A stretch of DNA of 64,000 nucleotides, taken from positions 1 to 64,000 of the forward strand of contig CAIVJW010000007.1 of the NCBI GenBank assembly GCA_903906315.1, in the 5' to 3' direction. The notes under the pieces are model-generated. The model was not told the origin of the DNA. It saw only the letters and a list, made by a program, of their open reading frames with translations, and did not search any database. Position numbers and translations under genes: made by a program. Shown here piece by piece: positions 34,825-43,316 of the stretch (position 1 is its first letter; each line of letters begins with the position of its first letter). The DNA comes from an uncultured delta proteobacterium (GTDB lineage Bacteria; Myxococcota_A; Polyangia; Polyangiales; Polyangiaceae).

Positions 34825-35691
34825 ATGAACGCGGTGACCCAGATCCTCGACGACGCGGTGCGGTTCGTGCGGACGAAGGCGACGACGAAGCCCCTCGTCG
34901 GCGTCGTGCTCGGCTCTGGCCTCGGCGCGTGGGCGGACGCGCTCGACCAGGCGGTGAAGATCCCGTACGCGGAGATCCCCCACATGCCGATCTCGACGGT
35001 CGCCGGGCACGCGGGCAACCTCGTGATCGGCGTCGCCGACGGCGTCCCGGTGGCGTGCTTGCAAGGGCGCGTTCACCCCTACGAGGGCCACCCCGCCGTG
35101 CGATCGGTCTTCGGCGTCCGGATGCTCGCGCGGCTCGGGTGTCGCGGGGCCGTGCTGACCAACGCGGCGGGCGGCATCCGGCCCGCGTTCCAGACCGGCG
35201 ACTTCATGCTGCTCTCCGACCACCTGAACCTGAGCGGCCAGAACCCGCTGGTAGGGCCGAACGAGGACGCGCTCGGGCCGCGCTTCCCGGACATGTCGAC
35301 GGCCTACGACCCCGAGGTGCGCGCGCTCGCGCGCGAGGCGGCGGCCGAGGTCGGGGTGCCGATCCACGAGGGCGTGTACGCCGCGCTGCTCGGCCCGTCG
35401 TACGAGACGCCGGCCGAGATCCGCATGCTCGGGCGGCTCGGCGCGGACGCGGTCGGCATGAGCACCGCGCTCGAGGTCATCGCCCTCCGGCACATGGGCG
35501 TGCGGTGCGGCGCGATGTCGTGCATCACGAACCTCGCCGCCGGCCTGTCGCCCGCCGCGCTGAACCACGCCGAGGTCGAGGAGACCGCGAGGCGCGTGCA
35601 CGACCGATTCAAGGCCCTGCTCTCCGCGTGGGTCCGCCGCGTGGGCGGCCTGGTCGCGGGCGCGCCGAGCGCGAGCGGGAGCCCGCGGTGA
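34825..35691 (+). CDS. punA: Purine-nucleoside phosphorylase (trimeric class)
   Basis: 288 residues. Phosphate-binding GSGLG is at 30-34, with HPYEGHP, TNAAGGIRPAFQTGDFML and the base-binding GPSYETPAEIRMLGRLGADAVGMST, where Glu contacts the purine. It cleaves purine (deoxy)nucleosides with phosphate for salvage. The Ala/Gly/Ser-rich C-terminal tail is extra. It overlaps cdd by four bases, forming a purine/pyrimidine salvage operon that matches the nucleoside-type importer at 530-4058. Confidence 0.95.
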   Translation: MNAVTQILDDAVRFVRTKATTKPLVGVVLGSGLGAWADALDQAVKIPYAEIPHMPISTVAGHAGNLVIGVADGVPVACLQGRVHPYEGHPAVRSVFGVRMLARLGCRGAVLTNAAGGIRPAFQTGDFMLLSDHLNLSGQNPLVGPNEDALGPRFPDMSTAYDPEVRALAREAAAEVGVPIHEGVYAALLGPSYETPAEIRMLGRLGADAVGMSTALEVIALRHMGVRCGAMSCITNLAAGLSPAALNHAEVEETARRVHDRFKALLSAWVRRVGGLVAGAPSASGSPR

Positions 35692-36178: not shown

Positions 36179-38596
36179 CTACTCGATCGGGCGCCCCACC
36201 GCGGCCTGGATCTGCTCGATCGCCGCGCCGAGCGAGGCGCGCGCCTTCTCGAGCGACGCGCGGTCCTCGCCCCACTTGGCGCGCGCCTTCTCCAGACGCC
36301 CGCGCTCGCGGCCGAGGTCGGCCTCGAGCTCGGCGCGGCGCGCCTCGAGGTTCGCGACCTCGTCGGCCCTCTGCTTCGCTTCGGTCGCCTGCGCGTCCCG
36401 CTCCTGCGTCCGCGCGGCGAGATCGGCCTCCGCCGCGGCGAGCTTCTGCTCGGCCGCCTGAGCGCGCCCGTTGACGTGCTCCAGCTCGAGCGCGCGCTTG
36501 CCGAGCGACGTCTCGAGCTCGTGCATGCGCGCCTCGGTCGCGGCGACCAGGTTCTTCGCGGTGGCGACCTCGGCCTTCGCGGCGGACGCCCGCGCCTCGA
36601 CCTCGGCCTTCGCGCCCGACGCGACGTCCGCGTCGGCGCGCGCCTTCGCGAGCTCCGCGTCCTTGGCGGCGAGCGCCTGCGCGTGCTTGCCCTCGAGCTC
36701 CTTCAAGCCGCGATCTCGCTCCGCGGCGAGCTCGCCCTCGCGCGCTGCGAGCCGCGCCGCCGCCGCCTGCGCGGCCTCGTCCGCCGAACGCTTCTGCGCC
36801 TCGACGGCCACGGCCTCCAGGCGCGCTCGCTCGGCGCCGACGGCCTCGTCGCGCGCCTTGCGTGCGGCCGCCTCGGCCGTCGCGATTTCCTTCTCGTGAT
36901 CGTCGGCGAGGCTGCGCAGCGCTGCCTTGTGCGCCGCCTCGATCGCCGCAACCTTCTGCTCGGTCTCGGCGCTGCCGGCGCGGGCCTTCGCGAGCTCCGC
37001 GTCGACGTCGGTAGCGCGGGACTTGTGCGCGGCGGCCTCGTTGCGCGCCGCAGACAGCTCGGCTGCGGCCTTGTCCGCCGCGGCCTTCAGCTCATCGGTG
37101 CGCTTCACGGCGGCGTCGCGCTCCGTGCGCGCCGTCTCGGCCTCCGCGTCGCGGTCCTCCGCCGCGCGCTCGAGCTCGAGGAGGCGATCGTTCTGGTCGG
37201 CCTTCTGGTGCTCGAGCGACAGGTTCTGGTCGCGCAGCTCGAGCCCGTCCTTGTCCTTGCGCGCCATCTGGTCGCGCAGGGAGAGGATCTCCTTGTCCTT
37301 CTTGTTGAGCGCCTCGCGCAGGTCGAGGAACTCTCGGCTCGAGACGTTCGACGCCTTCGCGGCCCCCGGCGCGGCCGAGGCCTTGACCTTGAGATCGTCG
37401 AGCTCGCGGCGCAGGCGCTGGGCCTCCTGGGCCTGCTCGCCGGCGTCGAGCTCCACCTTGTGCGCGTGCGCGCCGGCCTCCGAGGCCTCCCGCGTCAGCT
37501 TGACGACCTCGGCCTTCGTGAAGTCGAGCTCCGCGCGGGAGCGCTCGAGCTCCCCGCGCATCCGTTCGAGGTCGGCCGTCACGTCGGCCGGCAGCGCGTC
37601 GGACACCTTGAACACCGCCGCGTGCTTGCCCGTCGACGACGTCGCCACAGGCACGGCGCGCGAGGAAACGGGCGTAGCGCGCGAAAGCGCGGGCGATGCG
37701 ACGACGGGCGCGGGCGGCACGGGCGCGACGATGGCAGGGCGCAACGGCAAGGGCGAGGTGGACAGGCGCGCCGGCGTCGGCGCGACCGGCGCCGGGACGC
37801 TCACCGGAGCTGGGGTGAGCTGGACCGCGGGAGCGCTCGGGGCCGGCGCGCTCACGGCGGTCGGGGGGGACGCGAGGGCGACCTGCGCCGCGGGCGGCGT
37901 CGGCTGCTGGGCCAACCCGAGCAGATCGCTCGCGGGCTTGGTGAACGTCGACTCGTCGTCGTCGGAGAGCAGCCGGTCGAACGCACCGCCGATGAAGGCG
38001 TCGATCTCGCTGTCGGGGTCGCCCTCGCGGGGCCGCGCGGCCTCCGGCGCCACGGCCTCGAACGGCGCCGGGGTGTGGCGATTCTGGCCCATGGCCTGCC
38101 TCGCGTGGACGGGGGCATGCACGGGGGGCGCGTCGACGACGGGCGGCGGCGCCGGCTCGTCGAGGACCTCGGCCTCGTCGAAGGCGATGAGGTCGTCGAC
38201 CTCTCCCTCCGGCGGCGGGCCCGCGTCGATCGCCACGTACGCGCGGATGTGCTCGAGCAGATCGACGAACGCGATCGGCTTGTGGACGTAGTCTTCGGCG
38301 CGCGTCCGGAGCTTGCGGTGCTGCTCGAACGTCTCGTCGCTGGACTCGCTCGACATGATGATGAGCGGGACGTCCTTGAGCTGCGGATCCTTCTTGAGCT
38401 TGTTGCAGACCGAGAAGCCGTTCATCCGCGGCAGCTCGATCGACAGCAGGATCAAGTCGGGGCGCTCGGCGCTCGCGGCCTGGAGGCCGACGTTGCCGTC
38501 GTCGACCACCTGCACGCTGCACTGAAACCTCCCGAGCTCCGTTCGCAGCTCTCCGGCAAAGGCAGGATCGCTTTCAAAGACGAGGACTTTGGTCAT
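36179..38596 (-). CDS. FrzS-like pseudoreceiver/coiled-coil motility protein
   Basis: 805 residues. An N-terminal response-regulator fold (1-125) has ESD at 8-10, then DLILLSIELPRMNG, where the phospho-acceptor Asp is Ser52. ICxKLKK-like CNKLKKDPQLKDVPLIIM and QHRKLRTRAEDYVHKP closely follow Myxococcus FrzS, which also has an atypical receiver. A Pro/Ala linker (about 130-340) leads to about 450 residues of Ala/Glu/Lys/Arg coiled coil. FrzS moves between cell poles to direct type IV pilus motility. This protein is longer than M. xanthus FrzS, so orthology is likely but not proven. Confidence 0.85.
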   Translation of the reverse strand: MTKVLVFESDPAFAGELRTELGRFQCSVQVVDDGNVGLQAASAERPDLILLSIELPRMNGFSVCNKLKKDPQLKDVPLIIMSSESSDETFEQHRKLRTRAEDYVHKPIAFVDLLEHIRAYVAIDAGPPPEGEVDDLIAFDEAEVLDEPAPPPVVDAPPVHAPVHARQAMGQNRHTPAPFEAVAPEAARPREGDPDSEIDAFIGGAFDRLLSDDDESTFTKPASDLLGLAQQPTPPAAQVALASPPTAVSAPAPSAPAVQLTPAPVSVPAPVAPTPARLSTSPLPLRPAIVAPVPPAPVVASPALSRATPVSSRAVPVATSSTGKHAAVFKVSDALPADVTADLERMRGELERSRAELDFTKAEVVKLTREASEAGAHAHKVELDAGEQAQEAQRLRRELDDLKVKASAAPGAAKASNVSSREFLDLREALNKKDKEILSLRDQMARKDKDGLELRDQNLSLEHQKADQNDRLLELERAAEDRDAEAETARTERDAAVKRTDELKAAADKAAAELSAARNEAAAHKSRATDVDAELAKARAGSAETEQKVAAIEAAHKAALRSLADDHEKEIATAEAAARKARDEAVGAERARLEAVAVEAQKRSADEAAQAAAARLAAREGELAAERDRGLKELEGKHAQALAAKDAELAKARADADVASGAKAEVEARASAAKAEVATAKNLVAATEARMHELETSLGKRALELEHVNGRAQAAEQKLAAAEADLAARTQERDAQATEAKQRADEVANLEARRAELEADLGRERGRLEKARAKWGEDRASLEKARASLGAAIEQIQAAVGRPIE

Positions 38597-38746: not shown

Positions 38747-38922
38747 TCACGCGGCGAAATAGCCGTCGGGCTCGTCGCCGAACGCGACGCCCTGCTCGCG
38801 CCCGGTGGACGGTGTCCCCGTCGAGCGGCACCAGCTTCGCGCGGCGGGTCGCCTCCTCGAGGGATGACGGCGTTCAGGCCGGGCGCGTCGCCTCCCCCGG
38901 TGTCGATGGCGATCTTCCGCAT
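38747..38922 (-). pseudogene. Internally deleted 6-phosphofructokinase relic
   Basis: From ATG 38922 the frame reads MRKIAIDTGGGDAPGLNAVI, the ATP/PPi-binding start of PfkA. After Ile20 it jumps directly to a segment that, in the next frame, reads LEEATRRAKLVPLDGDTVHRAR, a PfkA C-terminal motif. After a second shift it reads EQGVAFGDEPDGYFAA and stops at 38747. Only about 176 nt remain of a normal gene of about 1 kb, so the middle is deleted and the ends are frameshifted. No activity is possible. The rest of the 38597-38982 gap holds nothing else recognisable. Confidence 0.8.
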
Positions 38923-38982: not shown

Positions 38983-39942
38983 TCAGCTCGCGACGGGGGG
39001 CACCGGCGTCGCGCGGACCTCGACCCTCGGCGCGAGCGGCGCCGGCGTGCGCGAAGGCCGCAGCGCCCCGATCGCGAGGCCGATCCCGGCCGCGATGACG
39101 AGCGTCGACCCGACGGCGGAGGCGAGCGTCGGCCGCTCCCCGAGCACGAGCGCGCCGAGCAGGTGGGTGACGACGACCCCGAGGTAGCCCACCGCGCCCA
39201 CGCGGGCCGCGCGATCGAGCGCGTACGCCCGCGTCATCGCGAGCTGGCCGAGGCCGCCGGCGAGGCCCGTCGCGCCGAGCAGCACCCAGCCGACCGGGTC
39301 GGGCGAGGACCACGATCGGGCCGCGATCACCCCGGTCGCGACGCTCGCGACGAGGGAGAAATGCAGCGCCACGGCCTCGGGGCTCTCGCGGCGCCCGCCG
39401 GCCTCGCCCCCGAGGCGGCGGAGCCAGATCATCGCGACGGCCGTGCAGAAGGCGCCGATCGTCGCCACCACCGCGACGTGACCGGCGATCTCCAGACGCG
39501 GCCCCACGACGAGCGCCGCGCCGGCGAACGCGATCGCCATCGCCCCCCAGACGCGGCGATCGCTCCGCTCGCCGAGCATGCGCGGGGCGAGGAGCGCGAT
39601 GAAGACGGGCGAGGTCGCGCCGAGGGTGACCACGTCGCCGATCGCCACGGAGGGCGCGCCTAGCGTGTAGAACACGCAGATCATCGCGCACGTGCCGGCG
39701 AGCGATCGCGCCCAGGCCTTGCGCTGATCGTGCACCACCAGCGGCGCGCCGCGCAGCCTCGCGACGCCGAAGGCGACGGCCGCGCCGACGATCGTCCGAG
39801 CGCAGGCGACCTCGGGCCATGCGGCGTGCGAGGTCGCCACGCGCGCCAGCACGCTCATCGCGCCGAACGCGAGCTGCGCCGCGGCCATCCACAGCACACC
39901 GGCGACGGCCTCCGGCAGCGCGCGCACGGGTGGCGAGGTCAC
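38983..39942 (-). CDS. EamA/DMT-family membrane transporter
   Basis: About 319 residues with ten hydrophobic helices in two halves of five, the EamA (drug/metabolite transporter) pattern. The first half opens LWMAAAQLAFGAMSVLARVA and the second contains LLGATGLAGGLGQLAMTRAYA and YLGVVVTHLLGALVLGERPT, typical of DMT exporters. It probably exports a small metabolite; the substrate is unknown. GTG 39942 follows a TGG-TACGAC box by 7 nt. It is divergent from the PhyH gene, with about 90 nt between them. Confidence 0.9.
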   Translation of the reverse strand: MTSPPVRALPEAVAGVLWMAAAQLAFGAMSVLARVATSHAAWPEVACARTIVGAAVAFGVARLRGAPLVVHDQRKAWARSLAGTCAMICVFYTLGAPSVAIGDVVTLGATSPVFIALLAPRMLGERSDRRVWGAMAIAFAGAALVVGPRLEIAGHVAVVATIGAFCTAVAMIWLRRLGGEAGGRRESPEAVALHFSLVASVATGVIAARSWSSPDPVGWVLLGATGLAGGLGQLAMTRAYALDRAARVGAVGYLGVVVTHLLGALVLGERPTLASAVGSTLVIAAGIGLAIGALRPSRTPAPLAPRVEVRATPVPPVAS

Positions 39943-39949
39943 GGCGGGG

Positions 39950-39958
39950 GTCGTACCA
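39950..39958 (-). promoter_or_regulatory. Extended -10 element (TGG-TACGAC) for the EamA gene
   Basis: On the minus strand TGG plus TACGAC ends 7 nt before GTG 39942; no Shine-Dalgarno sequence. Confidence 0.4.
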
Positions 39959-40033
39959 CGCGCCGGCCGCCCGACCACGCGGCGCGTCGACGTTCCGCGC
40001 GCCCGCCCGCCGCGCGCGCTACGCTCCGCGCCG

Positions 40034-40830: not shown

Positions 40831-42294
40831 TCACTTCGCCGGGATCGGCATCGCCGCGAAGCGCGCGATCGGGCCGCGGCGCACGCGCGCGAGCGCCGTC
40901 GCCCCCGGCTTCGCGTGGCCGAGCGCGACCGCGAGGTCCGCGCCGCTCCGCACCGGCGCGCCGTCGACCTCGGTGATCACGTCCCCCGGGTGCAGCTCCT
41001 CGGCCGCGCCGCCCTCGGCGACCGAGTCGACGCGCGCGCCGCCCGGCACGTCGGACACCGTGATGCCGTAGCGCCCCGCCGCGTGCGCCTTGCGATCTCC
41101 GTCGCCGACGCGGCCCGGGCGCGCCGGCTTCGCGTCGTCGTCCTGCAGGGCGTCGAGGGTGGCCGACACCTCCGTGCGCTTGTCGCCGCGGACGAACGCC
41201 AGCGTGATCGTGGATCCGGGGGCGTGGCGCGCGACGTTGCGCGGCAGCTCCTCGGCGTGGCGAATGGGCGTGCCGTCGACGGCGACGATCACGTCGCGCG
41301 GGCGGATCCCCGCGCGCGCCGCGGCGCCGGTCGGGTCGACGTCGGAGACGAGCGCGCCCTGCGGCGACGAGAGGCCGAGGCCCCTCGCGAGCGCGGGCGT
41401 GACGGGCTGGAAGGCGATGCCGATCTTGCCGCGCTCGACGTACCCCTTCTCGCGGAGCTGCGACAGGACGTCGCGGAGCGCGTCGGACGGGATGGCGAAG
41501 CCGATGCCCGTCGCGCCGGCCCGGATCGCCGTGTTGATGCCGACGACCTCGCCCTTCCAGTTGAAGAGCGGCCCGCCGGAGTTGCCGGGGTTGATGCTCG
41601 CGTCGGTCTGGATGAAGTCGTCGTACGGGCCGGCGCCGATCGTGCGCGCCTTGGCGCTCACGATGCCGAGCGTGACCGTGTGGCCGAGGCCGAACGGGTT
41701 GCCGACCGCGAGCACGCTCTCGCCGACGCGCGTCTGCTCGCTCGATCCGAGCGTGGCCACGGGCAGCCCCGTCGCGCCCTTGATCTTGAGCAGCGCGAGG
41801 TCGAGCTTCGGATCGCGACCGACCACCTCCGCGACGAGATCGCGGTCGTCGGCGAGATGAACGCGCACGTCGTCCGCCTCCCGCACGACGTGCTCGTTCG
41901 TCACGACGTACCCGCTCGCGTCGATGATGAAGCCGCTGCCGAGGGCGGATCGCTTGGTGCTGCGATCCGGCTGGCGCGGGCCTCGCGGGCCGAAGAAGAA
42001 GTCGAACGGGTCGGCCTCACCGCCCCCGGGCACGCGGACCTCCTGCGTCGTCGTGATGCTGACGACGGCGGGCTTCACGCGCTCCGCGAGCGCGGCGACG
42101 TCGAACGTCGCGGGCACGGGAGGCGCGATCGGCCCGACGGGCGAGGGCGAGCCCTGCGGCTCCGCGGCGATCGGCGCGCCGGCGCCCGGGTGCGCGGACG
42201 GGTGCCCGCAGCCGGCGGCGACCGATCCGAGGGCGAGCGCGAGCGTCAGGGGCCTGCACGAGGCAACGGCCGTGCGATCGATCATCGAGTTCAT
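40831..42294 (-). CDS. HtrA/DegP-family periplasmic serine protease (lipoprotein)
   Basis: 487 residues. The lipobox AAGC puts the lipid on Cys29, unlike soluble DegP. The trypsin-like domain has H135 (TNEHVV), D165 (KLDLALL) and S239 (GNSGGP). Two PDZ domains follow (about 295-385 with GAAARAGIRPRDVIVAVDG, and about 410-480 with LHPGDVITEVDG). It degrades or refolds misfolded envelope proteins, tethered to a membrane. The ATG has a GGAG ribosome-binding site; ATG 42285 is an alternative. Confidence 0.94.
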   Translation of the reverse strand: MNSMIDRTAVASCRPLTLALALGSVAAGCGHPSAHPGAGAPIAAEPQGSPSPVGPIAPPVPATFDVAALAERVKPAVVSITTTQEVRVPGGGEADPFDFFFGPRGPRQPDRSTKRSALGSGFIIDASGYVVTNEHVVREADDVRVHLADDRDLVAEVVGRDPKLDLALLKIKGATGLPVATLGSSEQTRVGESVLAVGNPFGLGHTVTLGIVSAKARTIGAGPYDDFIQTDASINPGNSGGPLFNWKGEVVGINTAIRAGATGIGFAIPSDALRDVLSQLREKGYVERGKIGIAFQPVTPALARGLGLSSPQGALVSDVDPTGAAARAGIRPRDVIVAVDGTPIRHAEELPRNVARHAPGSTITLAFVRGDKRTEVSATLDALQDDDAKPARPGRVGDGDRKAHAAGRYGITVSDVPGGARVDSVAEGGAAEELHPGDVITEVDGAPVRSGADLAVALGHAKPGATALARVRRGPIARFAAMPIPAK

Positions 42295-42458: not shown

Positions 42459-43316
42459 GTGTCCACGACCAACGCAAAGCTGCTCCACGGGCGGCGCATC
42501 GGCTTCCTCGGGGGCGGCAACATGGCCGCCGCCCTCATCCGCGGCCTCCTGCACTCGGGGACGGTCACGGCCGACCAGATCATGGTCAGCGACGTCAAGG
42601 ACGAGCGGCTGACCGAGCTGCACGCGACGTACGCCGTCACGACGACCGACGACAACGACGAGCTCGTCCGCTCGTCGAACGTGATCGTCCTCGCGGTCAA
42701 GCCGCAGATCGTCGACCGCATCCTCGGCACGCTGTCCAACGGGCTGAAGGACGGCGACCTCGTCGTCTCGATCGCCGCCGGCGTGCCCATCGACGCCCTC
42801 GAGGCGCGCCTGCCGGCGTCCGCGCGCGTCGTGCGATCCATGCCCAACACGGCCGCGATCGCGCTCGCGGGCGCGACGGCCATCGCGGCCGGCACCCACG
42901 CGACCCGCGACGACGTCGAGATCGCCAAGGCGCTCTTCGAGGCCGTCGGCCGCTGCGTGGTGCTCGACGAGTCCCTGCTCGACGCCGTCACGGGCCTCTC
43001 GGGCAGCGGCCCCGCCTACGTGATGGTCATCATCGACGCGCTCGCCGACGGCGGCGTGAAGGTCGGGCTCGGCCGCGACACCGCGCTCCTGCTCGCCGCG
43101 CAGACCGTCTACGGCGCGGCCAAGCTGCAGCTCGAGACGGGCGAGCACCCGGGCCGCCTCAAGGACATGGTCACGAGCCCCGGCGGCACCGCCATCGCCG
43201 GCCTGCACACGCTCGAGTCGGGCGGCCTGCGTCGCACGCTGATCGACGCCGTCGAGGCCGCGGCGGGCCGATCGGCAGAGCTCGGCGAGCAGATGGCGAA
43301 GAAGCTCCGCCGCTGA
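42459..43316 (+). CDS. proC: Pyrroline-5-carboxylate reductase
   Basis: 285 residues. The NADPH-binding fold begins RIGFLGGGNMAAALIRGLL; VLAVKPQIV and VVRSMPNTAA follow. The C-terminal dimer/active-site helix region reads DAVTGLSGSGPAYVMVIIDALADGGVKVGL and MVTSPGGTAIAGLHTLESGG, both diagnostic for P5C reductase. It performs the last step of proline synthesis. It is a single gene followed by a strong hairpin. Confidence 0.96.
   Translation: MSTTNAKLLHGRRIGFLGGGNMAAALIRGLLHSGTVTADQIMVSDVKDERLTELHATYAVTTTDDNDELVRSSNVIVLAVKPQIVDRILGTLSNGLKDGDLVVSIAAGVPIDALEARLPASARVVRSMPNTAAIALAGATAIAAGTHATRDDVEIAKALFEAVGRCVVLDESLLDAVTGLSGSGPAYVMVIIDALADGGVKVGLGRDTALLLAAQTVYGAAKLQLETGEHPGRLKDMVTSPGGTAIAGLHTLESGGLRRTLIDAVEAAAGRSAELGEQMAKKLRR

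Follow-up and report, generated by a model that had tools for sequence, protein, structure and literature searches.

A phosphofructokinase remnant in a Polyangiaceae genome, very probably left in place by an internal deletion

Between an EamA-type transporter gene and a receiver-domain/coiled-coil gene in the window, the whole 64-kb stretch of DNA analyzed here, 176 bp of the minus strand (38922-38747) resemble the two ends of a phosphofructokinase (PFK) gene. This raises the question of whether a central glycolytic gene has died at this locus, or whether the likeness is owed to chance, to the assembly or to a new use of the DNA. We hold with high confidence that the remnant is a PFK gene deprived of its middle in place, i.e., an internal-deletion pseudogene, the loss of which was probably tolerated through other PFKs.

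The 176 bp hold one PFK gene in three pieces and three reading frames, with MRKIAIDTGGGDAPGLNAVI read in one frame, LEEATRRAKLVPLDGDTVHRA in a second and GVAFGDEPDGYFAA-stop in a third, and the ancestral protein can no longer be read through in a single frame. Twenty start codons are followed by approximately 21 tail codons and then by the last 16 or so with the stop, the tail amounting to about 36 in total (Table 1). The original prediction gave the coordinates 38747-38922 exactly, and its description of the first 20 PFK codons fused to a frameshifted C-terminal tail is borne out by the sequence and by tblastn, although the tail starts earlier than proposed, at LEEATRRAK. It had also envisaged a clean internal deletion; the deletion of ~950 bp stands, but the tail carries a separate 2-bp net deletion, hence the three frames. 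The Pfam profile PF00365 (cut-off 30.9 bits), against which the intact PFK at the corresponding locus in G077 scores 336.8 bits, did not return the remnant among the four matches in its own genome.

Table 1. Positions of the remnant, its neighbors, the remaining PFKs and PFK remnants in related genomes.
Feature	Position	Strand	Remarks
PFK 5' end, MRKIAIDTGGGDAPGLNAVI	38863..38922	-	20 codons; sequence, tblastn vs 16 intact relatives
3' segment A, LEEATRRAKLVPLDGDTVHRA	38796..38862	-	out of 5'-end frame through ~950-bp deletion; junction ~38862
3' segment B, ending GVAFGDEPDGYFAA-stop	38747..38795	-	third frame, after 2-bp net deletion
Receiver-domain/coiled-coil protein, downstream neighbor	36179..38596	-	Pfam PF00072
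EamA-type transporter, upstream neighbor	38983..39978	-	Pfam PF00892, tblastn; beside intact PFK in 4/16 stretches (L054, L055, L057, L067)
Trypsin/PDZ (DegP-like) protease, conserved neighbor	40831..42294	-	
Pyrroline-5-carboxylate reductase, conserved neighbor	42459..43316	+	
Purine nucleoside phosphorylase, conserved neighbor	34825..35691	+	
Sorangium intact PFK (G077)	L059:9298-10419	-	374 aa, open
PFK of window's genome	C200 (L002)		passes ATP-PFK model NF005301, 598.2 (cut-off 400)
PFK of window's genome	C73 (L004)		passes PPi-PFK model NF041103, 637.7 (cut-off 550)
PFK of window's genome	C420 (L001)		passes PRK03202, 321.6 (cut-off 253)
PFK of window's genome	C159 (L003)		passes no model
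G003:C214, PPi-type PFK remnant	L204:1828-2413	-	~96 + 100 residues joined out of frame, middle ~235 residues gone
G021, ATP-type PFK remnant	L201:1973-2260		first 32 residues + inner piece + C end, frame breaks
G110, ATP-type PFK remnant	L202:2113-2400		N 26 + C ~80 residues, one stop
G101, PFK C end only	L203:2317-2670		same locus as G110, ~86% DNA identity around
G088, ATP-type PFK (L002 class)	L209:439-1080		~137 central residues absent, ends in frame; draft genome
G078, N-terminal PFK piece	L205:2196-2656		~80 residues, then frame lost; one-contig genome
G027, PFK N piece + C piece			on two contigs

That the two ends derive from one PFK gene is supported by searches in both directions. 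When the DNA of positions 38945-38730 was compared with 98 family genomes, 76 gave some match at E ≤ 0.01, mostly short and GC-rich; the strong matches were PFK, with E-values for the N-part as low as 2.8e-18. The N-part and the tail lay on one contig and in the right order in 13 of the 98 (G014, G019, G038, G055, G063, G076, G077, G085, G086, G092, G093, G096, and G097), where the distance between them exceeds that in the window by ~0.95 kb. Conversely, a tblastn search of the 64-kb window with 16 full-length relatives as queries recovered the N-part with every one of them (E 1e-6 to 2e-5), and the tail, linked or alone, with 13 at E ≤ 1 (missed with G038, G046, and G076), so both ends resemble a single PFK family. 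In a reversed-window control the best of 277 matches reached E 0.018. Chance similarity is thus rejected, given that both ends are collinear with one orthologue and the reversed window comes nowhere near; the original prediction had argued the same from collinearity on one strand.

Where does the intact gene reside in relatives? Among 80 family genomes with a completeness of at least 90%, 16 carry a PFK at least 68% identical (68-100%) to the Sorangium copy, and no internal stops were counted in these. Fifteen of the 16 PFKs lie within 2 kb of the same receiver-domain/coiled-coil gene (the G038 copy is ~13 kb away), the N-terminal 129 residues of which show 80-90% identity where an intact PFK adjoins it, in these 15 genomes. 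The window's genome was the only one found, across the 80, to have this neighborhood without an intact PFK. The gene order common to window and relatives is P5CR - DegP - (EamA) - PFK - receiver gene - CDA - PNP, and across 16 fetched stretches (L054-L069) close neighbor matches numbered 10 for the receiver gene, nine each for PNP and CDA, eight each for the DegP-like protease and P5CR, and four for EamA; the remaining stretches ended early or held the PFK at a different locus. The receiver gene starts 195-229 bp past the PFK stop in Sorangium (L058-L060) and ~150 bp past the remnant stop in the window. Because the intact PFK adjoins the same gene in 15 Polyangiaceae genomes, and the wider order matches where fetched, the gene appears to have decayed in place; a translocated fragment is rejected, as the remnant's neighbors match those of the intact PFK. 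The Sorangium copy in G077, for example, is alike in neighbors, strand and N- and C-terminal sequence, but it is full length and open, in contrast to the frame-shifted copy in the window with 84% of its length missing. In G003, checked for the same deletion, the receiver gene lies in a different neighborhood, and no remnant was found there.

The relatives' PFK genes measure 1107-1149 bp (with an assumed start codon for G070), so that 931-973 bp, or 84.1-84.7%, are absent from the window across the 16 comparisons, in keeping with the 80-85% originally estimated. The 5' breakpoint follows the codons NAVI and the 3' one precedes LEE, and the window junction has only one or two bases in common with both sides. 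In the 16 relatives, the 37-bp stretches around the two breakpoints have no word longer than 4-9 bp in common, too short for homologous recombination or an assembly repeat collapse to be favored, which argues for a real deletion. The two retained parts differ in their decay. In the tail, differences at codon positions 1, 2, and 3 number 215, 137, and 224 between window and relatives and 919, 820, and 1730 among relatives (first plus second to third, 352:224 and 1739:1730), these counts not being independent owing to ancestry. For the N-part the corresponding, likewise non-independent counts are 23, 5, and 95 against 75, 63, and 720 (28:95 and 138:720). The tail looks relaxed and the N-part hardly so, the 5' 20 codons being still near those of relatives with only slight decay; before TGGGD, all 16 relatives have N or S where the window has D.

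Collinear same-strand ends without a middle, broken frames and an intact orthologue in place are direct observations, and they are what characterizes an internal-deletion pseudogene; the other PFKs were likewise observed directly. One internal deletion of ~950 bp, presumably through illegitimate recombination between ends with almost no common sequence, would have inactivated a functional PFK of the Sorangium kind at this locus in this lineage. The 2-bp loss and the amino-acid changes in the leftover 176 bp would have come later, in what we infer to be the order of events, and the remnant would make no PFK. Ordinary bacterial deletion pseudogenes likewise combine an internal deletion, little or no end homology and small indels, with no essential difference, and by itself the remnant is an ordinary dead gene and a case of ordinary gene decay. 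It is also a clear, locatable case in which a bacterium with several PFKs has lost a central glycolytic gene; none of the titles and abstract openings screened mentions it.

An assembly error, with the assembler dropping the middle of a PFK that is intact in the real genome, is very improbable. As a draft in 455 contigs, the genome leaves room for such an error; however, the lost middle 84% is on no contig of the assembly, stated genome completeness is 98.55%, the tail bears a separate second lesion of 2 bp, and the 4-9 bp near the breakpoints offer no repeat long enough to collapse, making a repeat-driven collapse appear unlikely. Still less credible is a new use of the remnant, or of an ORF overlapping it, as a short peptide or as an element upstream of the receiver gene. 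In favor of this, the 5' 20 codons are well conserved and ORF 38961-38737 is open across 74 codons, but beyond PFK codon 20 that ORF reads the tail in the wrong frame, high-GC DNA is rich in chance ORFs (32 of at least 60 aa overlap a 7-kb stretch), and the DNA search of 98 family genomes found the fused two-ends form in no other genome.

If the gene was lost by internal deletion, which enzymes remain? The PFK identity given in the original prediction holds, but its PfkA label does not fit as well, since the best of all models for the Sorangium orthologue is TIGR02483 (PFK_mixed) and not the classic PfkA model, at 424.8 bits just below the curated cut-off of 430.55. Among those of the lost gene's relatives that were compared for these motifs, three read GGDGS and four PKTIDND, the residues that in "mixed" PFKs belong to the ATP type and the PPi type. 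Elsewhere in the window's genome are four full-length PFKs (PF00365), 36-44% identical to the lost type (Table 1). The suggested search for a second full-length copy yielded none in the assembly, the own-genome matches being these four paralogues of other classes with a best identity of 44%. Since they are retained, loss of the locus PFK was probably tolerated through redundancy. A clean gene-for-gene replacement by the ATP-type PFK on C420 is not supported: at a minimum of 60% identity this type occurs in eight of the 80 genomes (G000, G003, G082, G083, G046, G069, G070, and G044), and three of these (G046, G070, and G083) also have the locus PFK, so the two can coexist. The C420 type reads GGNGS where L047 (G111) has GGDGS, and with this motif its activity is not certain.

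The recurrence of PFK remnants is mildly interesting. It is conceivable, though we hold this only tentatively, that the turnover of PFK paralogues is unusually rapid in this genome's order, with as many as six PFKs from different classes per lineage, one of them repeatedly discarded by internal deletion, and the enzyme of glycolytic flux changed several times; the window's remnant would then be one visible step of the exchange. Together with the remnants of other classes, it offers cases in which to test whether an ATP- or a PPi-type PFK is responsible for the flux in these myxobacteria. A PF00365 search of 119 related genomes (39 + 46 + 34), with inspection of partial interior matches, gave interior remnants in seven, which with the window's genome makes eight of 119 (Table 1), a count that covers the PFK family alone and carries no claim of excess over other gene families. 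Contig-end fragments (G057, G063, and G116), G010 and partial matches above ~140 of 277 profile positions were left out, and small remnants are undercounted, given that the one in the window escaped the Pfam search. The G003 remnant likewise consists of two collinear PFK ends joined out of frame in place, with flanks resembling those of the intact L004 in the window's genome; it differs in PFK class and in retaining far longer ends than the window's 20 + 36 residues. The congeners G110 and G101, with both ends and the C end only at one locus, were cut differently.

Separately, contig C137 of G010 (L068:10791-11856) carries a nearly whole PFK across two frames, either a real frameshift or perhaps a sequencing error.
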